Source: Desulfurivibrio alkaliphilus AHT 2 (GTDB lineage Bacteria; Desulfobacterota; Desulfobulbia; Desulfobulbales; Desulfurivibrionaceae). Taken from it: a stretch of 64,000 nt of DNA. Each line of letters begins with the position of its first letter. The stretch's first letter is position 1. The notes below the pieces were generated by a model, which was not told the origin of the DNA, searched no databases, and saw only the letters and a list, made by a program, of their open reading frames with translations. A program made the position numbers and the translations under genes. The DNA is taken from contig NC_014216.1 of NCBI RefSeq assembly GCF_000092205.1, positions 2,361,742-2,425,741 on the forward strand. The letters are read 5' to 3'. Shown here in pieces: positions 19,691 to 54,263 of the stretch.

Positions 19691-19703
19691 TTTTGCGCGC
19701 CGT

Positions 19704-19982: not shown

Positions 19983-21277
19983 ATGGCCAATAGGAGGTTC
20001 GAGATGTTTCAATACCGTCAAATTCTTACCCAAATGCGGTTGGGCCAGTCCGACCGTCAGATCGCCAAGGCCAAGCTGATGGGCCGTCGCAAGGCCGCGC
20101 AGTTGCGGGCCTTGGCCCAGCAGCAGGGCTGGCTCGATCCCGCCCGGGAGTTGCCGGATGATGCCGAGCTGGCCAAAGTAATCAAGCTGCCGGCTCCGGG
20201 TGAATCGGCGGTGCCGCTGCTGCTGCCGTACCAGGAGCAGCTCAAGACCTGGCAGGCGGCCGGGATCAACGGCACCGCCATGCACCAGACCCTGGTGCGC
20301 GAACACGGCTTTACCGGTAGTTACTCCTCGGTCAGACGTTTTCTCCAGGACCTCAAGGGGGATAACCCCCAAGCCACGGTAATGCTGGACTTTGATCCCG
20401 GCGAAGCGGCCCAGGTGGATTTCGGTTCCGGCCCCAAGCTGCTTGATCCCCAGACCGGCAAGCCGTTTTCCACCTGGGTGTTCGTCATGACCCTCCCCAG
20501 ATGAAGGGGCGGGTGGAGTCCGGGGTCAAATACGTCAAAAACAACTTCCTGCCCTTGCGTACGTTCCGCAGTCTGGTCGATGCCAATCGCCAGCTTAAGG
20601 AGTGGGTGCTGGCAACGGCCGGCAACCGGAGCCACGGCACCACCAAGCAAAAGCCGTTGGTCATGTTCGCCGAGGCGGAGAAGGCCTTCCTTAAACCTTT
20701 GCCCGCCGTGGCCCCGGAGTTGGCGGTCTGGGCCGAGCACAAGCTGCACGGCAACTGCCATCTCCAGTTCGACAAAGCTTACTACTCCGCTCCCTTCAAG
20801 CTGGTGCACAAGAAGCTGTGGGTCAAGGCGACCGAAAACACCGTCAAGATCTACCACCAGCATCAACAGGTGGCGATCCATCCCCGCTGTGGCCGTCCCG
20901 GCCAGAAGGCCACCTGTATCGATCATCTGCCGCCGGACGCCGTCGCCTACCTGATGCGCGATCCCCAGTGGTGTCTCAAGCAGGCCGGTGAGATCGGCCC
21001 CCACTGCCACCGCCTGATCCACCGGCTGTTGAGTCACCGGGTGGTTGATCATCTCCGGGCGGCCCAAGGGGTGCTCCGGTTGGCCGGCAAATACGGCCCG
21101 GAGCGGCTGGAGGCCGCCTGTCACCGAGCGCTGATCTACGACAGCCCCCAATACATCACGGTCAAAACCATCCTCGGCAAGGGGCTTGACCAACAGCCCC
21201 CGGAAACGGAACCGGTGGCGGCCGGCATGGCCTACCGGGGCCAGGGCCGCTTCCAGCGCCAACAACTTTTTCACTGA
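19983..21277 (+). pseudogene. istA: istA transposase of element A, internally deleted
   Basis: The 5' part (19983-20504) encodes the helix-turn-helix and the start of the DDE domain, with the first catalytic Asp in AAQVDFGSG, and then breaks off at STWVFVMTLPR. The 3' part (from 20501 in another frame) resumes at MKGRVESGVKYVK, which holds the third catalytic residue Glu, and continues to the C-terminus. In intact relatives these two points are roughly 90 residues apart and the missing stretch contains the second Asp. The deletion also shifts the frame. The transposase must be inactive; element A could only move with IstA supplied in trans. Confidence 0.9.
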
Positions 21278-21292
21278 TAAGGAGGAACCTCA

Positions 21293-22078
21293 ATGAATCC
21301 CATGCCCGAACTGATCCCCATGCTCAAACAGTTGCGACTCTCCGGCATCCTTGATTCCCTGGAAGCCAGAAACCGCCAGGCCATCGAGGAAAAGCTGGCC
21401 TACACCGACTTCCTGGCCATGCTGGTCCAGGACGAAGTCGCCCGCCGTTCCCAGCGCAAGTTCGCCATGCGTGTCCGCCGGGCCAACTTCCGTAACCACA
21501 AAACCCTGGAGGAGTTCGACTTCTCCTTCAACCCCAACATCAACCGCGCCCTGATCATGGACCTGGCCACCTGCCGCTTCCTGGAAGAGGGCGCCAACCT
21601 GCTGGTGGTCGGCCCCTGCGGCACCGGCAAGAGCCATATCGCCCAGGCCATCGGCCACTGCGCGGTCAGAATGGGCTACGATGTGCTCTTCACGACCCAG
21701 ACCAAGATGCTGGGCCAACTACACGCCGCCCGCGCCACCAACGCCTACGAACGGCGGCTTAACGCCCTGGCCAAGGTCGATCTGCTGATCATCGACGACT
21801 TCGGCCTCAAACCACTGCGCACCCCCCAGGATGAGGATATCCATGACCTGGTTGGAGAACGTTACGAGCGCCGTTCCACCATCATCACCAGCAACCTGGA
21901 TCTCAACGAGTGGGGTGACGCCTTCCCCAATAAACTGCTGGGCTCGGCCACCATCGACCGCATCCGCCACGGCGCTTACTCACTGCTCCTGGACGGCAAA
22001 AGCTTCCGAGCGGCCAGGCCGCTGCCCAAATACCCCAAAAACGAGGTTGCCGAAAACAGCAAAAAAGGCAAAAATTAA
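21293..22078 (+). CDS. istB: IstB helper ATPase of element A
   Basis: 261 residues, full length for IstB. Walker A GPCGTGKSH at about 106-114, Walker B LLIIDDFGLKPL at about 165, sensor region STIITSNLDLNEWG. IstB assembles on target DNA and directs IstA-mediated insertion. AAGGAGG precedes the ATG. The C-terminal tail is Lys-rich. It appears functional although its partner istA is broken. Confidence 0.92.
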   Translation: MNPMPELIPMLKQLRLSGILDSLEARNRQAIEEKLAYTDFLAMLVQDEVARRSQRKFAMRVRRANFRNHKTLEEFDFSFNPNINRALIMDLATCRFLEEGANLLVVGPCGTGKSHIAQAIGHCAVRMGYDVLFTTQTKMLGQLHAARATNAYERRLNALAKVDLLIIDDFGLKPLRTPQDEDIHDLVGERYERRSTIITSNLDLNEWGDAFPNKLLGSATIDRIRHGAYSLLLDGKSFRAARPLPKYPKNEVAENSKKGKN

Positions 22079-22190
22079 AAACCGTCCGGAGCCCCAAAAT
22101 GGCCACTTGAGGGTGGCTCCATTAGCTGATCATGGGTGGCTCCATTAGGGTGATCATTAACACAAACCACTATCTATCTGTTTTTGCGGC

Positions 22191-22296
22191 TGTACCCGCT
22201 GTACCCATTGTGTACCCAATAGCGGGGACAAATAACTTGTTGATTTTACGCCCTGTACCCACTGTACCCGCCGTACCCGCTGTTTTATATTAAGAT
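22191..22296 (-). repeat. Iteron cluster, right copy (inverted)
   Basis: Reverse complement of the left cluster at 5981-6088: again three tandem 9-mers of GCGGGTACN type, a conserved central block, and three more GGGTAC boxes. Similarity extends from the ATCTTAA edge through the array. The copies are about 16 kb apart and face each other within the element. Such paired iteron sites resemble ori and crr of phage P4. Confidence 0.7.
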
Positions 22297-22367
22297 ACAA
22301 AACGCATCAACAGGATTAAGGTCCGCCAAAAACACTTTAATCTTTACCCCTCCACCATCATTAACCT

Positions 22368-22389
22368 GGGGGCAACTCCGGGGGCAACT
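22368..22389 (+). promoter_or_regulatory. Integrase arm-type sites, right end (candidate)
   Basis: GGGGGCAACT at 22368-22377 and 22380-22389, 12 bases apart, same orientation and same spacing as the pair near attL. It lies 62 bases inside attR. Confidence 0.6.
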
Positions 22390-22450
22390 CAAGACTCTAC
22401 GAAGAGCCAAAATCTTGATTAGACGACAAAACCGCTATGCAGTTTGGTGG

Positions 22451-22466
22451 CCTGCATCGCCACCAG
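22451..22466 (+). repeat. attR of integrative element
   Basis: CCTGCATCGCCACCAG, identical to the 3' end of tRNA-Met plus one base at 4359-4374. Neighbouring bases differ on both sides, defining the core at 16 bp. The DNA to the right is the original chromosome. Confidence 0.88.
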
Positions 22467-38725: not shown

Positions 38726-39796
38726 TCATCCCCGAGGGTGAAACTTGCGGTGAATGGCTTTCAGGCGGTTGGTGTCAACATGGGTGTAGATCTGGGTGGT
38801 GGCGATGTCGGCGTGCCCCAGCATCACCTGCACCGCCCGCAGGTCGGCGCCATGTTCCAGCAGATGGGTGGCAAAGGAGTGGCGCAGCACGTGCGGGCTG
38901 ATCTCGCGAGCAATCCCACGTTCTCTGGCGCTTTTCCGCACGATCTGCCAGAAACGCAGGCGGGTCATGGCCGTGCCCCGGCCGGTGACAAAGAGAAAAT
39001 CGCTGCGCCGCTTTTTCAGCAACCGGGGCCGGGCTTGGGTTATATAGACCGCCATGGCCTGGCGGGCGGCCTCACCAAAGGGTACCAGCCGCTCCTTGCT
39101 GCCCTTGCCCAAAATCCGCAGATGCCCGGCCTGATTGACCGCCGCCACCGGCAGCTTGACCAGCTCGGAAACCCGCATGCCGGTGGCATACAGCAAGTGC
39201 AGCATGGCGTGGTTACGCAGGGCCAGGATCGAAGCAGGCGGGGCCGGCGGGGCCAGCAGCTGCTCGACCTCGGCACTGCTGAGCACCTTGGGCAAGGCCC
39301 GGCCGATTTTAGGCAGATCAAGCAATGCGGCGGGATCGTGGCCAAGCAGTTGTTCACCCTGAAGAAAACGGAAAAAGGCGCGCAGGGCGGAAATCCGGCG
39401 GGATGTACTGCGCGGCGCTGCTTTCTCCTGCCGGCAGGCGGCCAGATAAGCTCGCAAATGCTCGGGGCCGATCTGGTTAATCTCGGTGATGGGCCGGGCT
39501 GAAGCCAGGCCTGCCCCCCGGTCTTTCCCGGCCGTCCCGGTGGCGCCGGCATCAACCGTGGCCGCAACCGGGGCCGTGGCCCGGGCCAGAAAAGCGAAAA
39601 ACGAGAGCAGGTCGGACTGGTAAGCCGCCAGGGTATTGGTGGCCAGCCGCCGCTCAGCGGCCAGGTACTGGAGAAAAAAATCCAGCAGGGGAAGAACAAA
39701 CGGAAACGCCCCGGAGACCACCTCAAGAAGGGGGTCAGCGGGGCGTGTAAAGCGGGTTTGGTGATCGTTACGCGAGCCTGAATTGCCTCTGGGCAT
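38726..39796 (-). CDS. XerC/XerD-type tyrosine recombinase
   Basis: 356 residues. Catalytic set complete: Arg in YATGMRVSELVKL, Lys in LGKGSKERLVPF, HVLRHSFATHLLEHG, LGHADIATTQIYTHV (His and nucleophile Tyr). The N-terminal core-binding domain starts near 40 (FFLQYLAAERRLATNTLAAY) and has an Ala/Gly-rich insertion of ~35 residues (about 75-110) not usual in Xer proteins. It likely acts at dif to resolve chromosome dimers. The start at 39796 lacks a clear ribosome site. It follows rpsU in the same direction. Confidence 0.88.
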   Translation of the reverse strand: MPRGNSGSRNDHQTRFTRPADPLLEVVSGAFPFVLPLLDFFLQYLAAERRLATNTLAAYQSDLLSFFAFLARATAPVAATVDAGATGTAGKDRGAGLASARPITEINQIGPEHLRAYLAACRQEKAAPRSTSRRISALRAFFRFLQGEQLLGHDPAALLDLPKIGRALPKVLSSAEVEQLLAPPAPPASILALRNHAMLHLLYATGMRVSELVKLPVAAVNQAGHLRILGKGSKERLVPFGEAARQAMAVYITQARPRLLKKRRSDFLFVTGRGTAMTRLRFWQIVRKSARERGIAREISPHVLRHSFATHLLEHGADLRAVQVMLGHADIATTQIYTHVDTNRLKAIHRKFHPRG

Positions 39797-39820
39797 GATC
39801 AGCAAACCCGGCAGCGGGTT

Positions 39821-40015
39821 TTAGTCCCGCTCCATTTTATACATCAGTTTCCGCAGTTTACGCCGCGATTCCGCCGTCTTGCGACGGCGTTTGGCGCTGG
39901 GCTTTTCGTAAAACTCGCGCCTCTTCAACTCTTTTTTCATACCGTCGAGCTGGAGTTTCTTTTTGAGAATGCGAATGGCATGCTCAACATCACCCCTGAC
40001 TTCAACTTCGATCAT
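39821..40015 (-). CDS. rpsU: 30S ribosomal protein S21
   Basis: 64 residues, full family length: MIEVEVRGDVEHAIRILKKK, then LKRREFYEKPSAKRRRKTAE and a very basic end. S21 helps the 30S subunit bind mRNA leaders. A good promoter is seen at 40105-40133. A short hairpin (AAACCCG/CGGGTTT) lies between it and the Xer gene. Confidence 0.95.
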   Translation of the reverse strand: MIEVEVRGDVEHAIRILKKKLQLDGMKKELKRREFYEKPSAKRRRKTAESRRKLRKLMYKMERD

Positions 40016-40467: not shown

Positions 40468-41052
40468 ATGACAGGACCTGAAAGAGGGCCCTTCTTAAAG
40501 CGCTTTGTTCTACCAATTATTCTTTTTTCACTAGGGCTTAATATATTTCTGGTAATGCTTCGTATCAACCTTGACTTGCCCCTGTTCCTTGACGCAACCG
40601 GTACGATGCTGGCGGCAGTGCTGATCGGCCCCTGGATTGGCGGCCTGGTCGGCTTAATGACCAATGTTATCTATGGAATTATCTATTGCACCAACTCCGT
40701 CCCTTTCGGGGTGGTCAATTTTGGCATAGGGTTGTTGACCGGCTACCTGGTTATCGCCCTGAAAGGCTATCATCGCTGGTATGCTCCCCTGCTCATCGGT
40801 TGCATCATCGCACTTTTCACCCCACTGATGTCTGCCCCTATCGCCACCTATCTGTTCGGCGGCATAACGGCTCATGGAATCGACAAATTCGTTGTTGCCT
40901 TGGTTGACAGCGGCAATTCGATGTTGTCCAGCGCTTTTTGGGGCCGTTTGCCAACCAGCTTTATCGACAAACTTCTCTCGGCCTATATGGTCTACGGCAT
41001 CATCCTGATCTGGCCGAAACTGACCAACAGACACATTTCTGCCGATGTTTAA
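40468..41052 (+). CDS. ECF-transporter S-component-like membrane protein
   Basis: 194 residues with six predicted transmembrane helices. Typical S-component segments: FLDATGTMLAAVLIGPWIGG, LVGLMTNVIYGI, and GVVNFGIGLLTGYLVIALKG. Such proteins bind a vitamin or small metabolite at the membrane and normally pair with an ECF energy module, which is not found here. Instead the gene overlaps by 8 bases a periplasmic-sensor diguanylate cyclase gene, suggesting ligand sensing or a shared substrate. Base composition is lower in G+C than the flanking core genes, hinting at transfer. Confidence 0.75.
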   Translation: MTGPERGPFLKRFVLPIILFSLGLNIFLVMLRINLDLPLFLDATGTMLAAVLIGPWIGGLVGLMTNVIYGIIYCTNSVPFGVVNFGIGLLTGYLVIALKGYHRWYAPLLIGCIIALFTPLMSAPIATYLFGGITAHGIDKFVVALVDSGNSMLSSAFWGRLPTSFIDKLLSAYMVYGIILIWPKLTNRHISADV

Positions 41053-41889
41053 GACCGTCGTCGTCATTCTGTTCCTGGTCAGCCCGATACTCTGCCATCA
41101 GCCAGTTGCCGCCGAGCCATTAAGGGTTGGGATCCACTCAGGCAACAGAACCCTCGAGTTCGTGACCAACAACGGCGATCCTGCGGGTATTCTGGTGGAT
41201 TTGTGGCGAGAATGGGCGCAGCACAGCGGAATGGAGCTGGAGTTTGTTGCTGTTGAGCCGTCAAAGGGAACGACACTGCTCGGAAAAGGCAAAATCGATG
41301 TCCTTGCCAATGCACCGCCGGGAAAAGATGTTGACTATACTCCCGCTTACCTTACCTTCGACTACAGCCTCCACGCACTCATGAGTTTTCACCCGGAGAC
41401 ACCGGGGCATTTCCCTGCGCGAATCGGTATTCGCACAGATGACCTCCTGTATATTGATCCCACCAAACTAAATAATCTTCAAGTCCAGCAGTATTCAGAT
41501 CACGTTGAAATATTTAAGGCATTGGAAAATGGCCATATCGATTACCTGCTTGCCAATAGCAGTCAATTGATTCTGGCAATCAATAACATGCGCCTCAGGA
41601 AGTTGCACTTTCCGCGAAAAAGCTTCTATCAGCAGCCCATCCGGGCGGCGGTGCAGAAAAATCAAGCGCAATTACTCAACGAGATAACGACCGGGCTTGC
41701 CACTATTGATTCTGCCCGGAAAGCCCGGAGTCTAAAAAGATGGATGCCCAGCACAATCGGCTACAGAATCTTCTGGCCCTTCATCGGGCTGGCTTTTTTC
41801 ATGGTGCTTTCAACGATACTGGTCATCACCGTCTGGCTGATGAACCAGCGACTTAAGCAACATGTCTGGCGGGCAACCCGGGCCATGTC
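41045..41889 (+). pseudogene. Sensor diguanylate cyclase, 5' part, interrupted by IS21
   Basis: Signal peptide (MFKTVVVILFLVSPILCHQP), a periplasmic type 3 solute-binding domain (about 25-230; LRVGIHSGNRTLEF, GILVDLWREWAQHSGMELEF, GKIDVLANAPPG), then one transmembrane helix (IFWPFIGLAFFMVLSTILVI). The frame continues RATRAMS and is then cut by IS21 element B. After removal of the element and one copy of its target duplication GCCATGTC, it reads straight into DQANTDPLTGLINRRY at 47009, giving a standard sensor-GGDEF protein. As it stands, translation runs 12 codons into the element and stops, leaving a membrane-anchored sensor without output. Confidence 0.9.
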
Positions 41890-42022
41890 TGCGTATTCCA
41901 GTGATTCCGGACACCCATTCCGGTAGGAAGTCGGACACCATTCCGGTCCGAAGCCGGACACCTGTTCCAGTGATTCCGGACACCCCGTAGTCGGAGCGAA
42001 GCGACGCGGTAGTTTTGATTGC

Positions 42023-42781
42023 TTACTCTTCCCGAGTCGGTGCTGTCAAGTTGGCTTTTGCCTTTCTCATTGATCCTCCTTTTGGTTTTAGTTGGATGAT
42101 GTGGGCGTTGTGGATCAGGCGATCCAGGATGGCGTCGGCGAGGGTGGGGTCGCCGATCTGTTGGTGCCAGTGTTCATGGGGCAGCTGACTGGCCACCAGG
42201 GTGGAACGGAGCTGGTAACGGTCCTCCAGGACTTCCAGCAGATCATGCCGCTGCTCCCGGTTCAGCGGTGACAGGCCGAAGTCGTCGAGCACCAGCAGAT
42301 CCACCTTGGCCATCCCGGCCATCAGTTTGACGTAACGACCATCGCCCTTGGCCAGATTGATCTCTTCAAAAAGCCGGGGTATCCGCTGGTAGCTGGCGGT
42401 ATAGCCACTGCGGCAGGCTTTTTGGGCAAAGGCGCAGGTCAGATAAGACTTGCCGGCGCCGGTGGGGCCGGTGATGATCATGTTCTGGTGCTGTCGCAGC
42501 CAGGAGCATTCCGCCAAGCGCATGATCAACGCTTTATCCAGGCCACGGGGGTGCCTGAAGTCGATATCCTCGATACAGGCCTGGTGGCGCAGCCGGGCTT
42601 GGCGGAGCCGGGTCTTGAGCCGGCGGTTGTCCCGCTCCACCGCCTCCCGGTCCACCAGCAGCCCCAGCCGCTCTTCGAAGCTCAGGTCGCTCAGGTCCAT
42701 GTTCTGTTGCTCTTTAAGGGCCGCGACCATACCTCCGAGGCGTAGACTTTCCAGTTTCTCGATGGTCGGGTGGATCAGCAT
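42023..42781 (-). CDS. istB: IstB helper ATPase of element B
   Basis: 252 residues, intact. Walker [10 protein letters not shown] (~106), Walker [16 protein letters not shown] (~168), sensor [15 protein letters not shown]. It overlaps the istA 3' end by 7 bases, the usual coupling in IS21. It may still help in transposition of related elements although its own istA is cut. Confidence 0.92.
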
Positions 42782-43990
42782 GTGTGTTCCTCCCGCAGTT
42801 GAAAGTAGTCGGCCCCACGGATATTCCGATGCTGCACCGGCGCCATCTCCTGGTCCTCACTTGGCAGCGGCCGGCTTTCCAGGCCATTTTTGAGGATCGA
42901 TTCGAGGCTGCGGTAGGAGAGGGTTTCGTAGGCCAAAGCACGGCGACAGGCCGCTTCCAGGCGGGGCTCACCATAGCTCTTGCCGAGCCGGAAGATCCCC
43001 AGCAGGCTGCGGTAGGCCTGCTGGGGGTGGCGGCGGCCGGTCAACAGCCGTTGGGTGACTTCACTCATGGCCGGACCGATCCTGGCCGCCCAGCGCTGGA
43101 ACCGCTCCGGGCTCCACTCAGCATAGAACCGGTGGTTGGGCGGCATGTGCTCCTTGATGGTGCTGTGCTTCCCCCGCTGCCGGGAGCGGGGATGAGAGGC
43201 CACTCGCCGGCCCTTGTGCAGGCACTCCACCGTGTCGGCGGTGTATCGCACCTCCAACACCTTGCCCACCAGGGCATGGGGGACGCTGTAATAATGGCCG
43301 GCCAGCTCGAGATGGTAGTCGATGTTGACCTTGGCCTTTTTCCATTCCGCAAACTGGTAGGCCTTTTCCGGCAGGGGGCGCAGGGCTGGCCGGTCAAGGC
43401 TCTCGTACAGACTCCGGCGGCTGCCCTCCAGCTTCTGGAAAGGCCGGTTGTTGAGCAACTCCAGCAGACGCCGGATCTCCCGGTTGAGTTCATTGAGACT
43501 GAAAAAACGCTGATGACGCAGCCGAGCCAAAATCCAGCGCTCGACCAGCAGCACCCCGGCTTCCGCCTTGGCCTTGTCCTTGGGCTTGCGAACCCGGGCC
43601 GGCAGCACCGTGGTCCGGTAATGGGTGGCTAAATCGTGGTAAGTGGGGTTGAGCAACGGTTCGTAGCGGCAGGCCTTGTTCACCCCGCTCTTGAGGTTGT
43701 CGGGGATCAGCAACTCCGTTACCCCGTCAAACCAGGCAAAGGCCCGCACATGGGAGCTGATCCAGTCGGGCAGACTCTGGCTCCAGGTCGCCTCCGCGTA
43801 GGTGTAGTTGCTGGCACCCAGCACCGCCAAAAATACCTGCGCTTCACGGACCTCGCCGCCGGTTGCGTCGATAATCGGCACCGTCCGTCCGGCGTAGTCA
43901 ATGAACGTCTTCTCCCCGGCCCGGTGCTCCTGCCGCATTACCAGGTCGCGCTTGCCCCGCCACTGGCTGTACTGCTGGCAAAACCAACTG
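42775..43990 (-). pseudogene. istA: istA of element B, 3' part
   Basis: Encodes the DDE domain of Ist[14 protein letters not shown] (first Asp), [19 protein letters not shown] (second Asp), [20 protein letters not shown] (Glu), and the complete C-terminal half. The 5' part is at 46444-46798 on the other side of element C. Joining them over one copy of ACTGT gives [18 protein letters not shown] in a single frame, so the gene was intact when element C landed. Confidence 0.92.
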
Positions 43991-44126
43991 TTGTTAATGG
44001 CCAATTAAAATGACCCACTACTGGCCAACAATTTTGACCCACCCCGAGGAGTGGTCAAGCGGCCATAAAGCGATTAGTGTCCCCGACTATTTACGGACAG
44101 GAGGGGATCTGGTGAAGGAGTGGGTT

Positions 44127-45650
44127 ATGATTCACAAAATTAAAGCGTTACACGGTGACGGAGGTGGGTTGTCGGTCCGTGCTATTGCCTTGGAGCTGGG
44201 TGTTTCTCGTAACACGGTACGCAAGTATCTGCGCTTGGATGAGGCGGCCATCAGCCAGGCGCAGGTTGACCGGGCACGCCATAAGCGTTTGGACATGCAC
44301 CGGAGCTATATCATTTATCTTTTAGAAACTTATCCCCGCCTCAGTGCGGTGAAAGTGGCTCGCAAGCTGCGGGAGAAGGTCAGCGGGTTGGCGGTGTCTG
44401 ATCGGAGTATCCGCCGTTATGTATCGGTCCTGAAAGAGACCGGTGTTGTGGCTCAAAAGCGCTACTATGAACCGATTATTGATCATGTGCCGGGGGTTCA
44501 GTGCCAGGTTGACCCGGGTGAGCTGCGCGGGGTGCTGGTCGGTGGCGAGCCACAAACCCTGTACTTTGTGGTGTTCGTCTTATCTTTTTCCCGGCTGATG
44601 TACGTCGGTCTTTCCTTTGAGCCCATTGATACCGGGCGTTTTATCCAGCTTCACGATGAGGCGTTCCGTTACTTTGGCGGTGTTACCGAGGAATGTGTTT
44701 ACGACCAGACCAAGTTGGTGGTCATCGAGGAGCTTTACCGTGAGTTGACGCTTAATCAGCGCTTTGCTGAATACGCGGCCACGGTGGGTATGCGGGTCCA
44801 CGCTTGCGAGGGTTATGATCCCGAGAGCAAAGGCAAGGTCGAAGCCGGAGTCAAATATGTCAAACAGAACTGCCTGTATGGCGAGACGTTCAGCGGCCGG
44901 CAGGATCTGCGCCGTTATGTTCGGCAGTGGCTGGACGAGGTGGCTAACCAGCGAACCCATGGCACCACCGGGCAGGTTCCCCGGCATCATTTCGAGACCG
45001 AAGAGCAGGCGCATCTGCACCCCTATCTGACCCCTGCCGGCTTAACGGTAGCGGCCAGTGAGCGGCGCAAGGTTGACAAGACCGGGCTGATCTCCTGGCG
45101 GGCCAATCGTTACTCGGTGCCCATGGCCTACCAGGGTGGCCAGGTCGGGGTGCAAGTCGAGGATGGACAATTGCAGGTCATCGACCTTGGCCGTGGCGAA
45201 AAGATCGCCTCCCATACCGTTTGCCTGGAAAAAGGCCAGATCATCAAAAACACCCATCATTACCGTGATCACAGCCAGCGGCTCCAGGAGCTGGAAGGGG
45301 CGGTATGTGCATTACTGGGTCAGCCGGCGGGCGAGCGATTGTGCCAAGTGTTGAAAAGCACCTCGCCCCGGATTTACAAAGATCAACTGGTGGCTGCCGT
45401 TCAGCTGCTCAAGGCGGAAGAGACCCTTGACCAGGCCCTGGTGGACCGACTGGCCCAGCGGCCCACGTTGACCGCCACGACCTTGAAACGCTATCTGGAT
45501 TCCTCCCGCCGCTCAAAAGAACGGGGGCGCGACAGCATCACGGCAACGGGGCTTCCGGATGCCGAAATCCAGTTGGGCCAGTATGCATCGTTAACAGCCG
45601 GCCATGGTGACCACCCCTTCGGCCAGGAGGTGAACCATGGATGCCATTGA
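44127..45650 (+). CDS. istA: IstA transposase of element C
   Basis: 507 residues. N-terminal HTH (GGLSVRAIALELGVSRNTVR) with KYLRLDEA, then the DDE domain: CQVDPGELRGVLV (first Asp), VYDQTKLVVIEEL (second Asp), ESKGKVEAGVKYVKQN (Glu), followed by a beta-barrel C-terminus (RRKVDKTGLISWRANRYSVP). GGAG 6 bases upstream supports the ATG at 44127. It overlaps istB by 14 bases. Complete compared with the defective copies of elements A and B. Confidence 0.93.
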   Translation: MIHKIKALHGDGGGLSVRAIALELGVSRNTVRKYLRLDEAAISQAQVDRARHKRLDMHRSYIIYLLETYPRLSAVKVARKLREKVSGLAVSDRSIRRYVSVLKETGVVAQKRYYEPIIDHVPGVQCQVDPGELRGVLVGGEPQTLYFVVFVLSFSRLMYVGLSFEPIDTGRFIQLHDEAFRYFGGVTEECVYDQTKLVVIEELYRELTLNQRFAEYAATVGMRVHACEGYDPESKGKVEAGVKYVKQNCLYGETFSGRQDLRRYVRQWLDEVANQRTHGTTGQVPRHHFETEEQAHLHPYLTPAGLTVAASERRKVDKTGLISWRANRYSVPMAYQGGQVGVQVEDGQLQVIDLGRGEKIASHTVCLEKGQIIKNTHHYRDHSQRLQELEGAVCALLGQPAGERLCQVLKSTSPRIYKDQLVAAVQLLKAEETLDQALVDRLAQRPTLTATTLKRYLDSSRRSKERGRDSITATGLPDAEIQLGQYASLTAGHGDHPFGQEVNHGCH

Positions 45651-46377
45651 ACGAACAGCCACCAAATACCGCAACTTGCGGCTCAACGCGACGGCCAGCC
45701 GGCTGCCGGAACTACTGGCCCGGGCCGACGCCAATGAGCTTTCCTATCTGCACCTGGTGGAGATGATGGCCGACCACGAACTGGAGCAACGAACCGGTAA
45801 ACGGATCGCCCTGAACCGCCGGAAAGCCGGCTTCCCCGCCGAAAAAATTCTGGAAGGTTTCGACTACCGTCACCAGACCACAATAAACAAGCGCCAGGTC
45901 AATGCCCTGCTGGATTTCGACTTTATCGATCAGCGTAATAATGTGATTTTTATTGGCCCGCCGGGTGTCGGCAAAACCCATTTGGCCATTGGGATTGGCC
46001 AAAAAGCCATTAACGCCGGCTACAAGGTTCTGTTTCGCAGCGCCCTTGATCTGGTTGAGGAACTGGAGCTGGCGGAAATGAAAGGTGAACTGAAAAAAAA
46101 GGTCAGTCAGTTGGTTAAGTTTGACCTCATGGTCATCGACGAGCTCGGCTACCTGCCGATGAGCCGGCAATCACGCTATAATTTGTTCCAGCTAATCAAC
46201 AGTTTCTACGAATACCGGTCGTTGATCATCACGACCAATAAAGACTTCACCCACTGGGGCGAGTTCTTTCATAACGACAACGTGGCAGTGCCGATCATTG
46301 ATCGCATTATCCATCATTCACACATCTTTATGCTAGGAGGAGAAAGTTATCGGCTAAAACAGAAAACGGCCCAATAG
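45637..46377 (+). CDS. istB: IstB helper ATPase of element C
   Basis: 246 residues. Walker A GPPGVGKTH (~108), Walker B LMVIDELGYLPMSRQ (~165), sensor RSLIITTNKDFTHWGEFF. GCCAGGAGG precedes the start, which lies within the istA end. Full-length family member. Confidence 0.93.
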   Translation: MDAIERTATKYRNLRLNATASRLPELLARADANELSYLHLVEMMADHELEQRTGKRIALNRRKAGFPAEKILEGFDYRHQTTINKRQVNALLDFDFIDQRNNVIFIGPPGVGKTHLAIGIGQKAINAGYKVLFRSALDLVEELELAEMKGELKKKVSQLVKFDLMVIDELGYLPMSRQSRYNLFQLINSFYEYRSLIITTNKDFTHWGEFFHNDNVAVPIIDRIIHHSHIFMLGGESYRLKQKTAQ

Positions 46378-46443
46378 TGGAGGTGGGGTGGGTCAAAATT
46401 GTTGGCCAAAGGTGGGTCAAAACTAATGGCCATTGACAACTGT

Positions 46444-46798
46444 ACTGCATTCCTTCGGGATGACGCTCCTTGTACTCCTGCCAGAGCAGTGCCAGGGTGA
46501 CATGCCGGTTGCCCCGGAGTTCCCGCTGCACTTCCGACCAGTCGGGGGTGGGCAGAGACTCGGCTGAGGCAGCCGATGTTTCCTGCTCCCGAAATAACAG
46601 CCGATTAAGGCCGACCTCGTCCAACTCCGCCGGCAACGGCCACTGCAAACCCGCCGCCTTGAACCGTAAAAGATAGTCGGACACCGTACTTTTGCCGACT
46701 CCACAACTGGTCGCGATCTCCCGCAGGCTTCGCCGGCACTCGTACTTCAAACGTAATATCTCGTAAATCTTGCGCATGGGTAACCTCTCCGCCGGCAT
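46444..46798 (-). pseudogene. istA: istA of element B, 5' part
   Basis: Encodes the N-terminal HTH (RRSLREIATSCGVGKSTVSD, YLLRFKAAGLQWPLP) through LLWQEYKERHPEGMQYS, where element C interrupts. AAGGAGG lies before the ATG at 46798. The protein would carry on a few codons into element C and terminate. Confidence 0.9.
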
Positions 46799-47003
46799 CA
46801 CTTCCTCCTTTCAGTCTTAATGCTTGACAAAAAGATGGTGTGATACCACTTGGTTGCCCGCGCTGCTACCTCCTTCTAACCGGGGTGTCCGGAATCACCG
46901 GAATGCTGTCCGCCTTCAGAACGGAATGGTGTCCGGCTTCCCACCGGAATGCTGTCCGGCTTCGGACCGGAACGGTGTCCGGCTTCCACCGGAATATGCA
47001 GCC

Positions 47004-47504
47004 ATGTCTGATCAAGCCAATACCGACCCACTGACCGGGCTGATCAACCGGCGCTATTTTATGGAAATCCTCAACGATCTGCTGAAACAGCCCAACCATG
47101 GCAACCGGCTGGGCACATTGCTTTTTCTGGATCTTGACAATTTTAAACCAGTGAATGATCAACTTGGCCATGATGCGGGGGACATCGCTCTCCAGGTAAT
47201 AGCAGAGCGCTTGCGTAATCTGCTGCGAGAACAGGACTACGTCGCCAGATTGGGAGGTGACGAGTTTGTCTTACTTTTTACTGGTGACAGCAGTAATAAT
47301 CTTGATTCTGAGACCGTAGCGCAGCGTGTCGAAGCAAATATTGCCGCCCCTATTATGGTCAAAAAGAAAAAGATAAACCTCGGTTGCAGCATCGGCACCA
47401 CGCAGCTGAAAAAGGGCGATGACCCGCAAGAAGTTTTGAATCGGGCAGACAAGGCCATGTATGCTGTCAAGTTTGCCCGACGCCACAAAACCACCACCAT
47501 GTGA
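47004..47504 (+). pseudogene. Diguanylate cyclase GGDEF domain, 3' part of split gene
   Basis: 166 residues if read from the ATG in the duplicated GCCATGTC. Complete GGDEF domain: NTDPLTGLINRRYFMEILND, FLDLDNFKPVNDQLGHDAGD, LGGDEFVLLFTGD (active site intact, no RxxD inhibitory site five residues before: YVARLGGDEF has Val-Ala-Arg-Leu). If transcribed from the element end it could make a soluble, unregulated cyclase; no clear ribosome site precedes the ATG. Otherwise the remnant of the sensor cyclase. Confidence 0.85.
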
Positions 47505-47559
47505 CCCCGTTTCCAGCAAGCAGCTTCCACCAAACACAAAGGTTGGGCAAACAAAAGGT

Positions 47560-47627
47560 TCACAGGCGCACCTAGATCCCGTGGCGCTGCAGGTGTTCCT
47601 TGACCACCGAGATCTTCACCTCGCGGC
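47560..47627 (-). pseudogene. Relic of hisF 3' end, copy A
   Basis: About 68 bases matching the last ~20 codons of hisF (50451-50520) at roughly 90% identity, same orientation, including the stop region (TCACAGGCGCACCT). It shares GATCCCGTGGCGCTGCAGG with relic B, against TATCCCGTGACGCTGCAGG in the functional gene. Confidence 0.8.
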
Positions 47628-47637
47628 AAAAGTTGAG

Positions 47638-48015
47638 CTAAAAAGGCTTATACAACGCAAAGAACGTGGCCGCCAAAGCAAGCATAATAGCGGCGGCCCC
47701 TAACCAGGGCAGCTTCTCCTTTGAGCCATATAAATACAGTGGCCATACTGCCAGCATGACTAGTATAAAAAACTTGGCAATGATCCAACCAAACGCCTGG
47801 ATATTGCTGAATTGCATCAATAGGCCGATGCCGCCAAGCAACACAATCAGCAGTCCAACCTTGTGAAACATGCCAATAAACCTTGGTAGCGGATTATCTT
47901 CTTTGCTACCAATCGCCGCCCTGAACATATGCCCACCAAGGGCGCTGAACACAAAAAAAATCCCGGCAAGATGCACAATCTTGGAAATGTAATAGGTATT
48001 CAAATCAACCTCCAC
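47638..48015 (-). CDS. Small integral membrane protein, 125 aa
   Basis: Four predicted transmembrane helices: ISKIVHLAGIFFVFSALGGH, VGLLIVLLGGIGLLM, FGWIIAKFFILVMLAVWPLY, GAAAIMLALAATFFALY. His and Met near the first and second helices might bind haem, but no family was recognised; it resembles small SirB-type or cytochrome-associated membrane proteins in layout. It stands alone between the two hisF relics, in DNA of lower G+C. Confidence 0.6.
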   Translation of the reverse strand: MEVDLNTYYISKIVHLAGIFFVFSALGGHMFRAAIGSKEDNPLPRFIGMFHKVGLLIVLLGGIGLLMQFSNIQAFGWIIAKFFILVMLAVWPLYLYGSKEKLPWLGAAAIMLALAATFFALYKPF

Positions 48016-48493
48016 AATAAAACTGAATTACAGAGCCCATCATACCAAAAAAATGGCACTAGCTCCTCTCTTGCCTCGCGTTATGTAAGGGGGGCTGGGA
48101 TAGGAGGTTACTTTTCTCGACCCTGGCAAAAAACGGGGCATCAGCGAACACCCAGTGCAACTTGCCCCTCAAAAGCCTGCACCCTTATCATGCGCAACTA
48201 CCGACCGGCATGTCAACGAAAAAAGCCACCCCATAACAGCCTGATTACGGAAGGTGCCCGCATTTTGCACCAGCAAGCGGCAAAAGAGCTGCCCCCCAGC
48301 CGCCTGAATCACTTCGTAAAACCTCACGGCCGCACATGATCCCGTGGCGCTGCAGGTGTTCCTTGACCGCCGAGATCTCCTCCTCGCGGCGGTGGAAGAT
48401 GCCGGCATTGTCAAACTTCTTTGAAAATTAAGCGGCCTTAGGACGTTTTCCTTGCTGGCCAACTTTTAAGGAGGTATTTAGCCAGAGCCTCTT
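48016..48493 (-). other. Gap holding a second hisF relic
   Basis: 478 bases without a believable gene. Besides relic B at 48324-48406 it holds no terminator or repeat that I recognise. A minus-strand frame across 48169-48462 is only antisense noise over the relic. Confidence 0.45.
48324..48406 (-). pseudogene. Relic of hisF 3' end, copy B
   Basis: About 80 bases matching hisF 50451-50533 (from TCACAGGCGCAC to GATGCCGGC), with scattered changes and a small indel near CACATGATCCC. It extends further into the gene than relic A. Confidence 0.82.
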
Positions 48494-50035
48494 TCATTGA
48501 ACCGTGAAGGTCAATGGTGAAGACCACCCCGATGTCATCGCCGAAGGAGAAAACAAATCAGGGGGCGTTGGGCACACATTATCCCAGGACCACGGCTTTA
48601 TCTCGCCGTAATAGGAGATTATTTTTATATTCCATTCATTACTGCCGAATCCACTCGGACTATTATTCTCAATTGGATTCCAGCCATCCGTGCACCCATC
48701 ACCCATGCAGCCTATCCATTGGCTGGAACAAGCTTGATTATAAGCGTAGACGACCACATTACTGTAAGATGAACTGTTGTCCCAGGTTACATAATCGGTA
48801 CTAGAAATTATTTGTCCGGGGGCGGGGAAGGTGAACACCGGTATTTCCGGCGAATCGGTTGTTGTCGCCCCGCTACTGCCGGAGCTGCCACTTTGTTTCA
48901 CATAATCAACAAGTAATATCCCGCTTGCGGGATCATATACGCTTAAGGCTGTTGCTGTAACCGTGTAGTCCACGATGATCGTAGAATTCGCTGGCGTCCC
49001 ATCACAACCACCGTTCGCGTCAAATGTAAAAGTTATAGCTGTATCGGTATACGTATATGTGCCTCCTTCTATACATCCGCCCCATGCTGCATCATAATTT
49101 TCCCAAGTAATATCGGTTAACGTTAGGGTTTGGTTGGAAGAACTCGCTGTTGCAGCGTGAAACCAAGTCCCAATCAATGCAGCACTGCTTCCAGTATCAT
49201 TGTCATGGGGGCAAGTCATTTTCTTCCAATAACGGTTGTAGTCGTCATCGTCTACAATGCTGTTGCCGTACTCGTACCAGACTCGTCTGACATCTATCTG
49301 ATCGGTTCCGGTTTGAAGTAAAATCGCCTTCTGGTCACCACTTTTTCCCTCTTCGGCTGTCCGGAACCACAGCTCTCCCCCAATAATCTCGAAGCCAATG
49401 CTAACTGACTCATCCATGTCGCCGTATTGGAATTCAGCGTGGCTCAGGGAGGTAAAGGTATGACACATGCCGACATAAGCAGGGTCAAAATACCGGTACT
49501 CCACCCAAGTATCACCGACCCTGATGGGACCGAAACCGATCAGCTCTACTGTTTTTGCGGATTTTTTTGTGAATACCCCGGTAATTTCTGCTAATTTGCC
49601 GCCCCCTTCGCCGCAGACGTTCCCTGCTGCGTTGAGCGTAAGTGTGTCGCGTGCGCTATTTAACGTTCCCTGCCCAGTAACATGAAAATTTACACAATCT
49701 GAATTGGTTGAATTGGAGATGATCGTGAAATTATAAACACCTGAGGTGATCGCTCCCGAAATTGAACCATCTTCAAAGATAGTTCCAGACACCCCTCCGG
49801 CTTCTTCTGCCAGGACGAAAACCAGCGACTCGGTTCCGTTGTCCGAGTCGTCTGGGTTGCCGGTAACGGTTAAAGTCAAATTGCCGTTCCAGGTCCCGGC
49901 AAAATCCCCTGCGGACGCTTCAGTGCTTCCGTTTTCTCCACCACCGCCGCCTCCGCTTCCGCTTCCACTATCACCGGAGCAAGCCGTTAGCAGAAAAAAG
50001 GCCGAAACCAAAACCACCCAAAATAGCTTTTTCAT
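48494..50035 (-). CDS. Secreted lipoprotein, 513 aa, unknown
   Basis: Lipoprotein signal (KKLFWVVLVSAFFLLTAC) with lipobox LLTAC; then a Gly/Ser-rich linker (~20-40) and beta-rich domains. At about 45-160 is a lipocalin-like/META-type beta domain (FAGTWNGNLTLTVTG), at about 290-390 a second one (LIGTWFHAATASSSNQTLTL), and near the C-terminus a fibronectin- or immunoglobulin-like domain (PEIPVFTFPAPGQIISSTDY). Several cysteines suggest disulfides. GGAGGG 6 bases upstream sets the start at 50035. Lower G+C and Asn/Thr/Ser-rich composition differ from the core genes, pointing to recent acquisition. It may be cell-surface or periplasmic. Confidence 0.75.
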   Translation of the reverse strand: MKKLFWVVLVSAFFLLTACSGDSGSGSGGGGGGENGSTEASAGDFAGTWNGNLTLTVTGNPDDSDNGTESLVFVLAEEAGGVSGTIFEDGSISGAITSGVYNFTIISNSTNSDCVNFHVTGQGTLNSARDTLTLNAAGNVCGEGGGKLAEITGVFTKKSAKTVELIGFGPIRVGDTWVEYRYFDPAYVGMCHTFTSLSHAEFQYGDMDESVSIGFEIIGGELWFRTAEEGKSGDQKAILLQTGTDQIDVRRVWYEYGNSIVDDDDYNRYWKKMTCPHDNDTGSSAALIGTWFHAATASSSNQTLTLTDITWENYDAAWGGCIEGGTYTYTDTAITFTFDANGGCDGTPANSTIIVDYTVTATALSVYDPASGILLVDYVKQSGSSGSSGATTTDSPEIPVFTFPAPGQIISSTDYVTWDNSSSYSNVVVYAYNQACSSQWIGCMGDGCTDGWNPIENNSPSGFGSNEWNIKIISYYGEIKPWSWDNVCPTPPDLFSPSAMTSGWSSPLTFTVQ

Positions 50036-50450
50036 TTTTCCCTCCTCCACCTGAACACCCTCCCATTGGCTACACGGTTTTCTTACAATAAGAACCGATG
50101 CTTCCCGTCCCCACTTCGCGATGGGTCTATTTTTTCGTGCGTTTCAACTGCTAAGCAAAAATCGTTCCCCCTTGGCCAACACAGCAAAAAAACCTCAACT
50201 TGACCAACCCTAAGGGCAGACCTAAGCTCAGCACTGGGACAAACCGCCAGAGCCGGTGTATCTGTTTGGGATAATGGCCAGATTCGGCATGGTTAAATGA
50301 CCAGATGTGGCTTCGCAGGCACCCGGTTGGGCGGCAAAAAATAAAGTAGCAACCACCCCTTGAAAAACATAAAAAAACCGCCCCGGAATTATACCCAGAG
50401 CGGCTTATTGGTTTGTTGGCTGGCAGGGGCAACTAAAAATCACAAAAAGA
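50036..50450 (-). other. Gap between hisHF and the lipoprotein gene
   Basis: Contains the hisHF terminator (50371-50406) and, closer to 50090, presumably the lipoprotein promoter. No coding sequence seen. Confidence 0.5.
50371..50406 (-). terminator. Terminator of the rdgB-hisHF unit
   Basis: Minus-strand reading: GCCGCTCTGGG pairs imperfectly with CCGGGGCGG around TATAATT, followed by seven T. It lies 45 bases after the hisF stop. Confidence 0.75.
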
Positions 50451-52103
50451 TCACAGGCGCACCTCTATCCCGTGACGCTGCAGGTGTTCCTTGACCGCCG
50501 AGATCTCCACCTCGCGGCGGTGGAAGATGCCGGCGGCCAGGGCGGCTTCGGCGTTGGTGGCGGTGAAGACCTCGCTGAAGTGTTCGGATCTGCCGGCGCC
50601 GCTGGAGGCGATCACCGGGATACCCACCGCCTCTTTGACCATTTTGATCAGTTCCAGGTCGAAGCCGGAGTTGGTGCCGTCCTTGTCGATACAGTTGAGC
50701 AGAATCTCGCCGGCCCCCAGTTCCTCGCAGGCCGCCGCCAGGGTGGCGGCATCAAGGTCGCGGCCCTCGCGACCGCCCTTGACGGTGCACTGGTACCAGC
50801 AATACTCTTCGCCATTGGGGCCGGGAAAGGCGGTGGGGATTACCCGGTGGGGCACCTCATCGGGGCTCTTTACGTAAACCCGGCGGGGGTCGATGGAAAT
50901 CACCACCGCCTGGTTGCCGTAAACATAGGCTATTTGCTCAATGGAGCTTTTGCCGTCCTTCCTGCGGCCCCGGCGCAGATAATCCTCCACCACCGCCACC
51001 GCGTCGCTGCCGATGGAGATCTTGTCGGCCCCGGCCCGGAAATAGCGGGCCGCCACGTCCAGGGCCGAGTAAAAACGACCATTGGCGTCGGTGAACTCCC
51101 GGATGCCGCCGCCGATGGTGAGCGGCACGAAAACCTCTTCCGAGGCCCGTTCCAGCACCTCCAGCATGGGCTGATCTTCCAAGGGAAAGTCACGGAAGGC
51201 GGTGATGTTAAGAAAGGTCACCTCGTCGGCCCCCTCCCGGAAGTAGCGGGCCGCCAGCTCCACCGGCTTACCCAGGTTGCGTACCTCACCACCGCTCTCC
51301 CGGACATCGTACTGGTCGCCTTTGGTTACCACCAGATCACCCTGATCATTGCTGCGGACATCGAGGCAGGCGATGATCCGCTTGGCCAGCCTGGTACGGG
51401 AAGGCGGAAAGCCGGAAGCACCCAGACTAACTCCCGGGGCCGGGGTTGCGACGCTGACCGGCCGGGGCCGGGCCTGGGGTTCCTGCAGGAAGTTGCGTAA
51501 AATATTCAGCCCTGCCCGACCGCTTTTTTCCGGGTGAAACTGGCAGGCCACCACCTTTCCCCGCTGCACGGCGCTGATGAAGTCGCCGCCGTATGCGGTT
51601 TCCGCCAGGATCCAGGCACGGTTTTCCTGGCTGGCGGTAGCGCGGTAGGTGTGGACGAAGTATAATTTTTCCTCTCGGTAGTCGGCAAAAAGCGACGAGG
51701 GCTGGCGCATGGCAATGCCGTTCCAGCCGATCTGGGGCACTGCCAGGCCCGGCGCCCGGAACCTCTCAATGTGCCCTTTGATCAGGCCCAGCCCGGCCAC
51801 CCCGGGAGACTCCTCACTGCCTTCAAACAGGGTCTGCAAACCCAGGCAGATGCCCAGGTAAGGGCGGTCGGCCGCCAGGTATTGCCGCAGGGGCTCCAAA
51901 AAACCTCGGTTCTGCAGGCTTTCCATGGCGGCGCCAAAGCTTCCCACGCCGGGAAAGATCAGTTTTTCGGCCCGCAGGATATCGGCGGGCTCGACCACCT
52001 CTTGTACGGTATAGCCCAGTTTGCGGATGGCGTTACGGACGCTGCGCACGTTGCCCGCGCCGTAATCCAGCAGGGTGACGATGGGTAAGGTGCCGGTGGT
52101 CAT
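50451..52103 (-). CDS. hisHF: Bifunctional imidazole glycerol phosphate synthase HisHF
   Basis: 550 residues. Residues 1-205 are the glutamine amidotransferase HisH, with the catalytic Cys in LGICLGLQTLFEG (~85) and the His/Glu pair in CQFHPEKSG (~190). A ~30-residue Pro/Ala linker leads to HisF (~238-550): RLAKRIIACLDVRSND (catalytic Asp), GGGIREF, and CIDKDGTNSGFDLELI (second Asp). HisF here contains the extended insertions of the eukaryote-like HisHF type (REGADEVTFLNITAFRDFPL, YVYGNQAVVISIDPRRV). The enzyme makes IGP and AICAR from PRFAR. It overlaps rdgB by 4 bases. The fused form is normal in fungi and plants but rarer in bacteria. Confidence 0.95.
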   Translation of the reverse strand: MTTGTLPIVTLLDYGAGNVRSVRNAIRKLGYTVQEVVEPADILRAEKLIFPGVGSFGAAMESLQNRGFLEPLRQYLAADRPYLGICLGLQTLFEGSEESPGVAGLGLIKGHIERFRAPGLAVPQIGWNGIAMRQPSSLFADYREEKLYFVHTYRATASQENRAWILAETAYGGDFISAVQRGKVVACQFHPEKSGRAGLNILRNFLQEPQARPRPVSVATPAPGVSLGASGFPPSRTRLAKRIIACLDVRSNDQGDLVVTKGDQYDVRESGGEVRNLGKPVELAARYFREGADEVTFLNITAFRDFPLEDQPMLEVLERASEEVFVPLTIGGGIREFTDANGRFYSALDVAARYFRAGADKISIGSDAVAVVEDYLRRGRRKDGKSSIEQIAYVYGNQAVVISIDPRRVYVKSPDEVPHRVIPTAFPGPNGEEYCWYQCTVKGGREGRDLDAATLAAACEELGAGEILLNCIDKDGTNSGFDLELIKMVKEAVGIPVIASSGAGRSEHFSEVFTATNAEAALAAGIFHRREVEISAVKEHLQRHGIEVRL

Positions 52104-52833: not shown

Positions 52834-52893
52834 CCAAAAAAATCGGCAAACGTCCAGCCGTGCCGCGGGTTACGGCACGGCTGGACGTTTGCC
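52834..52893 (-). terminator. Strong terminator of spmAB
   Basis: Perfect 21-bp stem (52845-52865 with 52873-52893), 7-base loop, followed on the minus strand by seven T. The stem begins at the first base of the stop codon of the SpmAB gene. Confidence 0.92.
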
Positions 52894-54263
52894 TAAAACC
52901 ATAGGTTACAAACCACCACTGCCGCCACAATGCCGGCCGCATCGGCGGTGAGGGCGGCGGGCAGGGCGTGGCGGGTGCGGGTAATCCCCACGGCGCCGAA
53001 ATATACCGCCAGCACATAAAAAGTGGTTTCGGTGGAGCCCTGCATCACCGAAACCAGAAAGGCGACAAAGCTGTCCGGGTCGCGGGCCACGATCTCGCTC
53101 ATCATCCCGAAGGCGCCGCTGCCGGAAAGCGGCCGCATCAGGGCCACGCTCAAGGCCTCGGCGGGCAGCCCGACCCGCTCGGTAAAAGGGGAGAGGACGT
53201 TGATCAAAATCTCCATGGCGCCGCTGGCCCGGAACATGCCGATGGCAACAAAAATCGCCACCAGGAAAGGGATAATCCGCACCGCGGTGTTGAACCCTTC
53301 CTTGGCCCCTTCGGTGGCCACTTCATACACCCTGACCCCGCGCAGATAGCCGAAAATCAGCAAACCGGCAATCAGCATGGGAATCAGCCAGGTGGAGATG
53401 GCGCCGATCACCGAGATGGAGTCCTCCCCGCCAGCGCCGCCGGCAAAAAACAGCCGGTAGACAACCCCGCCGGCAAAGGCCAGCAACAACAGCAGGATAA
53501 AAAAACGGCCGGCGGCACCGGGCGGGCTTAAAGTCACACCATCAGCAGGCTGGGAGGGCTGGCTCGGCTGAGCGCCGGCAGCAGTCCCGCCGTCAGGCTT
53601 GGCCCCCGGCGCCCCGGCCTCCGGCCCGGCGGCGATCCCGGTCATCCCGGCAACCGGCGGTTTGCCCGGTTCGGGACCGGCCAGCAATTTGGCCATGGTG
53701 ATGGCCACCATGGTCGAGCAAAGGGTGGCGACAATGGCGGGAATCAGAATCTCCGCCGGACTGGTGGCTCCGGCGGCGGCCCGCACGGTGATCACCCCCA
53801 GGGGCAGGAGGGTGACGCTGGAGGTGTTGATGGCCAGGAAAAGGCACATGGCGTTGGTGGCCGTGCCTTTTTCATGGGCCAGCTTGTCCAGCTCCTGCAT
53901 GGCCTTGATGCCCATGGGGGTGGCGGCATTACCAAGCCCCATGGTATTGGCGGCCATGTTCATGATCATGGCGCTCATAGCCGGGTGTTCGGCGGGCACC
54001 TGGGGAAAAAGGCGGGTCATCAGCGGTTTCAGGGCCCGGGCGATCATCAGCATCAACCCGCCGGCCTCGGCCACCTTCATCAGCCCCAGCCAGAAGGCCA
54101 TGGGTCCGATCAGGCCAATGGCCAGCATTACCCCTGATTTGGCCGATTCAAAAGAGGCGGTGGTAACTTCATCCATCCGCCCGGTATAGGCGGCGGTCAC
54201 CGTGGCCACGGCGATCATCCCCAGCCAGATAATGTTGATTGCCGATGCTTTGGGAGCGTGCAT
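52893..54263 (-). CDS. SpmA-SpmB fusion, nucleoside-recognition membrane protein
   Basis: 456 residues. The first ~195 correspond to SpmA (INIIWLGMIAVATVTAAYTG, MNMAANTMGLGNAATPMG); a Pro/Ala/Gly-rich linker of ~60 residues follows, then a SpmB-like half (~260-456; YEVATEGAKEGFNTAVRIIP, GSGAFGMMSEIV, QGSTETTFYVLAVYFGAVGI). Each half has a Gate/nucleoside-recognition domain with four or five transmembrane helices. In Bacillus the two are separate spore-maturation proteins, but homologs are widespread in non-sporulating Proteobacteria, with suspected transport roles. No sporulation genes are seen. Confidence 0.88.
   Translation of the reverse strand: MHAPKASAINIIWLGMIAVATVTAAYTGRMDEVTTASFESAKSGVMLAIGLIGPMAFWLGLMKVAEAGGLMLMIARALKPLMTRLFPQVPAEHPAMSAMIMNMAANTMGLGNAATPMGIKAMQELDKLAHEKGTATNAMCLFLAINTSSVTLLPLGVITVRAAAGATSPAEILIPAIVATLCSTMVAITMAKLLAGPEPGKPPVAGMTGIAAGPEAGAPGAKPDGGTAAGAQPSQPSQPADGVTLSPPGAAGRFFILLLLLAFAGGVVYRLFFAGGAGGEDSISVIGAISTWLIPMLIAGLLIFGYLRGVRVYEVATEGAKEGFNTAVRIIPFLVAIFVAIGMFRASGAMEILINVLSPFTERVGLPAEALSVALMRPLSGSGAFGMMSEIVARDPDSFVAFLVSVMQGSTETTFYVLAVYFGAVGITRTRHALPAALTADAAGIVAAVVVCNLWF

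Follow-up and report, generated by a model that had tools for sequence, protein, structure and literature searches.

Displaced hisF 3′ ends beside the hisH-hisF gene of Desulfurivibrio alkaliphilus AHT2 point to successive insertions, probably by a gene-restoring integrative element

Gene-restoring genomic islands are already known: the attachment site attP usually carries a replacement sequence for the target gene (PMC10111431), and PMC4383910 describes likewise a replacement sequence on the attP of islands in transfer RNA (tRNA) genes. Here we analyze a 64,000-nt stretch (the window, to which coordinates refer unless a locus is named) of the closed, 3,097,763-bp genome of Desulfurivibrio alkaliphilus AHT2, in which two short relics of the hisF 3′ end lie downstream of the live hisH-hisF fusion gene. 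We put at about 0.72 the probability that these relics are displaced hisF ends from at least two successive insertions via an integrase-bearing element, of which the integrase and its adjoining DNA arm were later deleted. Such an element would resemble gene-restoring islands in having the integrase on the element, a replacement sequence on attP, and a regenerated gene and displaced fragment at its two ends; it would differ in its target, hisF, in the 345-bp length of the replaced segment, and in that the displaced ends accumulate serially and outlive the elements. A replaced segment of 345 bp is, to our knowledge, longer than in protein-gene cases such as icd. In a limited search of literature that was available in part, we met neither hisF as a target nor a 345-bp replacement, serial scars, or the replacement of surface-protein C-termini, and an E. 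coli entry named for hisF is a table row on a lipopolysaccharide/capsule region and not such a site. A conserved metabolic gene would be a new integration site.

The live hisH-hisF fusion gene (50451..52103, minus strand; 550 aa) was identified from its open reading frame (ORF) and hidden Markov model family matches, which comprise TIGR01855 (201.4 bits; cut-off 105.4), TIGR00735 (330.5 bits; cut-off 294.55), PF00977, and PF00117. Relic 1 (47551..47627, minus strand; 77 bp) and relic 2 (48318..48406, minus strand; 89 bp) repeat the live end (~50442-50534) in direct orientation, lie 2.9 and 2.1 kb past the gene, and start near codons 523-528 of the fusion gene, relic 2 being without its 5′ part. 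A whole-genome search aligned relic 1 with the live end at 91% identity (E value 1.9e-24) and relic 2 at 90% (E value 9.4e-28), and found no further comparable copy of the hisF end genome-wide, the other 39 matches being weak (best 25 bp, E value 6.7e-6). As a control, second copies of the last 100 bp were sought within the window (E value 1e-6) for the 48 ORFs of at least 150 aa, and two had one: hisF, and the ORF at 46328-46801, which extends into an insertion sequence (IS)-end repeat. An earlier note, made from the letters of this stretch, had reported pieces of the hisF end of ~70-80 bp at 47560 and 48324 in the orientation of the gene, sharing changes that the gene does not have. The repeat and whole-genome searches bear out the pieces and their orientation, and two changes are indeed common to both relics and not in the live gene (plus strand, GATCCCGTGGCG vs TATCCCGTGACG). 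Its suggestion that one relic arose from the other is unsupported and is not the best reading, because the flanks of the relics match different live ends: the last codons and 3′ flank GTGCGCCTGTGAnCnTTTTGT are common to the live end and relic 1, and the flank GTGAGGTTTTACGAAG is common to relic 2 and the live hisF end of a sister species, G002.

Two insertions, which we call cargoes, separate the three ends. Cargo 1 (48407..50441, minus strand; about 2 kb), with a 518-aa ORF at 48494-50050 that is lipoprotein-like from a reading of its N-terminus, lies between the gene and relic 2; it gave no Pfam or NCBIfam match and has no long repeat elsewhere in the genome. Cargo 2 (47629..48317, minus strand), with a 125-aa membrane-protein-like ORF at 47638-48015, lies between relics 2 and 1. 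The ancestral downstream neighbors of hisF (38726..40015, minus strand) are an S21-like gene (39821-40015, minus strand) and a XerC/D-like recombinase gene with a PF00589 match (38726-39805, minus strand), both named from a reading of their translations. They adjoin hisF in G003 and G004, within about 450 bp after the gene, and in the window are separated from it by about 10 kb; the empty site is present in those two relatives. In G002, the live hisF is followed by the gene for the 125-aa membrane-protein-like product, with cargo 1 absent between hisF and cargo 2, and an alignment of the G002 segment holding the live hisF end and the cargo-2 gene (L041:1844-2616) with window 48406-47629 spans 782 bp at 88.7% identity. 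Because this junction and its flank match those of relic 2 and cargo 2, the alignment shows relic 2 to be a former functional hisF end that was displaced, and cargo 1 to have arrived after cargo 2, after the split from G002, together with a new hisF end. A regenerated target gene with a displaced fragment, as the earlier note proposed, is found in the window by way of the G002 junction and in relatives as well. G001, of the same genus, has a relic (L040:3150-3234) just before the ancestral neighbors (match from 3297), with a different gene separating the relic from its live hisF, which is the order predicted by displacement. Displaced hisF ends combined with sister-species alignment can in this way give the order of insertions even after loss of the integrase and attachment sites.

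The G002 junction also bears on whether nearby IS elements moved the hisF fragments. Two IS21-like elements do lie near, at about 42000-46400; G002 is already in the cargo-2 state, and there is no multi-copy IS end at the relic borders, because 47500-50460 has no long genome match outside the hisF ends (two other matches are of 58-136 bp at 69-78%). On account of the relic borders we reject an IS-driven origin, which we regard as extremely improbable.

Other partial hisF ends were sought in 38 relatives, with hisHF as the query, and in 242 genomes from the order, with the final 116 residues as the query. Partial ends in addition to the live gene are present, by our reading, in at least 22 of the 242 order genomes, from seven families; the matches first listed reached down to an E value of about 2e-55, 30 of the 242 were re-queried, 19 of those were counted by reading (a weak match in G094 being excluded) and G000, G001, and G010 were added, and the count takes in fragments on contigs without the live gene, as in G007. 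The cargoes between the copies differ from genome to genome, which is the pattern that the earlier note proposed looking for. All 15 of the viewed copies that keep their 5′ limit, chosen because they reach codon 435, begin exactly at codon 435, and 14 other viewed relics are cut at scattered points on the 5′ side and have no arm. G010, of the same family as D. alkaliphilus, has three displaced ends, all of which begin at codon 435 and reach, or nearly reach, the stop, the first 0.8 kb beyond the gene and the next two at intervals of 7.6 and 4.9 kb, and their identity to the live end falls going outward (97.1, 90.4, and 80.5%). An extreme accretion array is seen at L078 (G085:C218), with four hisF-end relics within about 3 kb and small genes between them, one of them rhodanese-like. 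Several draft contigs (G071:C78, G118:C38, G211:C40, and others) end a few hundred bases past hisF, and G070:C18, G070:C49, and G085:C218 start within a hisF end; it looks as though the assemblies were interrupted by the repeats.

Eight pairs of live and displaced ends from relatives show 311 differences, of which 236 fall at third codon positions (copies 2 and 3 of G010 and the G059 pair were excluded for gaps), and there is no stop in the first 110 codons of the displaced ends. Because of this third-position bias without stops, live and displaced ends appear to have evolved as working hisF ends before they met, which fits an element-borne end and is unlike a local duplication. If the hisF end had simply been duplicated as a segment and had then decayed, the copies would adjoin the gene in the same orientation, as the relics do, and relic 2 does resemble the live end closely in its coding part; the cargo, however, is not duplicated, the flank of relic 2 is that of the live end in G002, and the eight pairs and the common codon-435 limit argue against it further. 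This explanation, largely refuted by the G002 junction, is in our judgment very unlikely. The duplication of a larger region including upstream hisF sequence, named in the earlier note as the outcome contrary to its proposal, was not seen: there is a common 5′ limit, the cargoes differ, and third positions carry most of the changes.

One family of tyrosine integrases was detected in 7 of the 242 order genomes (E value 1e-60 or better), with PF00589 and PF13356 above cut-off. In five of the seven, the integrase lies between the live and displaced hisF ends: G059 (a fragment), G069, G105, G143, and G195. The integrase ends about 170-240 bp before the displaced end in G069, G105, and G143, and in G195 it directly follows the live hisF gene. 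By coordinates, the insertions measure about 4.0 (G195), 5.0 (G059), 11.5 (G069), 13.6 (G143), and 18.8 kb (G105). Their cargo includes a VapE/DUF5906 primase with domains above cut-offs (G069), a RepB-type primase and an antirestriction protein (G143), and matches to defense models for a dGTPase (G069), SIR2 (G105), JukB (G143), and a viperin-like protein (G195). The remaining two integrases, of G123 and G150, sit at genes other than hisF. In a tree of the family, in which 7 of 14 inner branches are open, the hisF integrases group together with that of G123 among them, and the targets therefore seem to have shifted in the course of time. Members of the family are rare: among 348 Pseudomonadaceae genomes one was found in a single genome, already known to carry it; none was found in the viral contigs scanned, a phage search gave a single record at 31.7%, and none was detected at 1e-80 in 395 genomes of the phylum, a sample in which no positive control is known.

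Next to the displaced ends, a conserved arm of ~200 bp recurs. Among the 15 codon-435 copies it is near-complete at ten, partial at three, and replaced by other sequence at two, near-complete meaning a profile match over at least 213 of 235 positions, with the profile built from the same ten sites. Twelve codon-435 copies, from seven families, were aligned (L077, L080, and copy 2 of L060 being left out). The arm contains repeats like GGTTGGGTTGGGTGG and GGTTGGGTnGTGGTTGGGTGAG and a CCTTGAAAA box, and the arm profile also matched sites in the order that are not beside hisF. Repeated capture of cargo at the hisF end with regeneration of the gene, the central proposal of the earlier note, is supported by the codon-435 starts, the arms, and the integrase in five genomes, and a site-specific arrangement together with an integrase is what these loci show in relatives, as judged by comparing genomes. 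An integrase family with clear attP arms is also a candidate tool for anaerobic sulfur bacteria.

The mechanism that we propose would work as follows. An integrative element with a tyrosine integrase would carry its own version of the last 115 hisF codons (345 bp) beside the ~200-bp arm. Crossover at codon 435, for which the predicted recombination site in the codon-435 region is TGCTGGTAYCAG, would join the 5′ part of the host hisF to the 3′ part of the element, so that the gene stays whole and the old 3′ end comes to lie beyond the cargo; with each later insertion, earlier ends would be pushed further out. In the window, the part corresponding to that carried by elements in relatives is the live hisF 3′ segment, codons 435-550 (50451..50801, minus strand), and the site matching the crossover of the relatives is at codon 435 (50788..50801, minus strand; TGCTGGTACCAGTG, with the palindrome CTGGTACCAG), a position deduced from displaced copies in relatives and not from the window relics. 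In D. alkaliphilus, the older event would have brought in cargo 2 and left relic 1, and the younger would have brought in cargo 1 and left relic 2, after which deletion would have removed the integrase and the arm, along with the 5′ portion of both displaced ends. By such a route, the last 115 codons of a core enzyme may be renewed by mobile DNA.

Homology-aided illegitimate joining could yield a similar locus: linear donor DNA would recombine with hisF on one side and join randomly inside the old end on the other, which would renew the hisF end, add cargo, and leave 5′-truncated ends without an integrase. The window relics and the 14 others cut at scattered points without an arm have this appearance, as does a window without an integrase of the family. 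Random joining does not account for 15 displaced ends in relatives that share a start codon, 13 of them with a full or partial arm, nor for an integrase inside five insertions, and both the arm and the exact start are kept in G010, of the family to which D. alkaliphilus belongs. We consider illegitimate joining unlikely. That an insertion displaced and renewed the hisF end of the window is well supported by the alignments under either the integrase model or illegitimate joining.

Several observations weigh against integrase-mediated displacement in the window. The profile search found no arm there and no codon-435 junction is present, and the order-wide integrase search found no integrase of the hisF family in the D. 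alkaliphilus genome; because integrase, arm, and junction are all absent, we infer the integrase step in the window, and with it that this family made the window insertions, from the relatives. G002 has no counterpart of relic 1, and because no relic is seen there we can only infer that cargo 2 displaced relic 1 in an earlier round. The distance from the integrase to the displaced end is 2 kb in G059 and 2.8 kb in G195. Identity between window and G002 is 85.8% before codon 435 and 90.0% after it, with no loss beyond the site, so that the live end, if imported, must have had a close relative as its donor. In its coding part, relic 2 resembles the live end of the window more than that of G002, perhaps because the donor was conspecific or because gene conversion took place. 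Comparison of the 5′ and 3′ parts in six genera gave no consistent sign of imported ends.

Individual genomes differ in this respect. At codon 435, G010 stands out most among the 12 of its genus (−5.8 points), and G123, in which no hisF element was seen, is lower still in its own genus (−6.6 points). The live end of G195 is 92.2% identical to another species, G104, and 88.7% identical to the displaced end of the same genome; in G069 it is the displaced end that lies nearer to the sister G063 (79.1%, vs 75.7% for the live end). Nothing clear emerged from the codon-435 comparison for G143, G105, or the window. We read G010 and G069 as leaning toward an imported end, and the others as not doing so. 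In G069 (L061, from 1819 and from 13714 onwards), ~120 bp past the stop are near-identical between live and displaced ends and the coding part differs by 12.5%, possibly as a result of gene conversion.

Among other described systems, P4-like phage satellites and similar small integrative elements share with the hisF elements an Arm-DNA-bind_3 integrase, a VapE/DUF5906 primase, an antirestriction protein, and defense-like cargo; unlike in such satellites, the G069 primase scores 40.3 bits against TIGR01613 (cut-off 108.7), and there was no match in the viral contigs scanned. The accretion array of G085 (L078) looks like an integron cassette array in that small genes are split by a repeat, but here the repeat is a gene end and not attC, and the recombinase falls below the IntI cut-off. 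An integron origin was rejected, the recombinases scoring 50.2 and 57.0 bits against TIGR02249 (cut-off 265). The strong PF00589 match in the window, at 38768-39286, sits in the gene read as chromosomal XerC/D.

Named relatives that are 63-67% identical to the integrase come from Pseudomonas, Polaromonas, a Geobacteraceae metagenome-assembled genome (MAG), and a Desulfobulbus MAG. In Pseudomonas sp. UMAB-08, Polaromonas sp. OV174, and the Pseudomonas plasmid pA62H2, a DUF4214-type gene has the element within it or next to it, where the codons encode TFTLT (L092, L093, L094, and L103), and past the integrase and arm each of the three records has an ORF of 587-704 residues resembling the C-termini of DUF4214-type proteins. 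A Pfam scan that took in UMAB-08 and pA62H2 detected DUF4214 in their live proteins. Most of the alternative C-termini align at about 29-38%; there was no mutual BLASTP match at 1e-5 between the live and displaced C-termini of pA62H2, nor between the two displaced C-termini of UMAB-08. UMAB-08 has two tandem elements at the DUF4214-type gene and, in addition, a 7,355-bp contig that has identical 70-bp ends, closes on itself, and carries a further 569-residue C-terminus; a collapsed tandem array could also explain this contig. It is 92-99% identical to the tandem elements in the integrase region and 74-95% in some other parts, with no match to them for the C-terminus part and some of the cargo. 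UMAB-08 has four such C-termini in all, a live one, a tandem pair of displaced ones, and that of the self-closing contig, and the integrases of the elements are 98% identical.

In shufflons (Rci and PilV), one recombinase site lies at the start of alternative C-termini. The Pseudomonas relatives, and they alone, share this feature; unlike shufflons, with their inverted segments, they are arranged as direct repeats, borne by integrative elements that each have an integrase of their own. We tentatively suggest, as a possibility that falls short of being probable, that integrases of this family swap the C-termini of proteins among genomes: with a full 3′ coding segment on the attP of each element, any integration would replace the C-terminal part of the target, conservatively for HisF (115 residues, the end of a housekeeping gene being turned over serially throughout Desulfobulbales) and in a diversifying manner for DUF4214/RTX-repeat surface-type proteins (about 570-700 residues) in Pseudomonas and Polaromonas, with UMAB-08 as a potential shufflon-like switch. 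A limited literature search found nothing linking DUF4214 with an integrase. The surface-protein elements raise the question of integration itself as a route for swapping protein C-termini. By our reading, other targets of the family (L095, L096, L097, L098/L086, and L088) include a cobalamin-gene end in Pseudomonas, a cobalamin-riboswitch-like sequence in the Geobacteraceae MAG, an amidohydrolase-like gene in the Desulfobulbus MAG, and, in G150, the end of an unnamed gene; the cobalamin-gene-end and amidohydrolase-like targets gave no Pfam match.

Elsewhere in the window, the abutting IS21-like elements seem to split a sensor-diguanylate cyclase gene, its sensor half at 41045-41926 and its GGDEF half at 46824-47504. 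Arrays of a 23-bp CCGGAATG-TGTCCGGCTTC repeat stand at the outer ends of the pair, and GCCATGTCTG is present at both borders (41045-47504). ARAGORN placed a tRNA-Arg at 53073-53161 inside the ORF at 52893-54263, probably a false call. A likely genomic island occupies 4297-22465: it begins with a tRNA-Met (4297-4373) followed by an integrase gene (about 4610-5695), and a repeat of the final 15 bases of the tRNA-Met lies at 22451-22465 (repeat E value 0.009).

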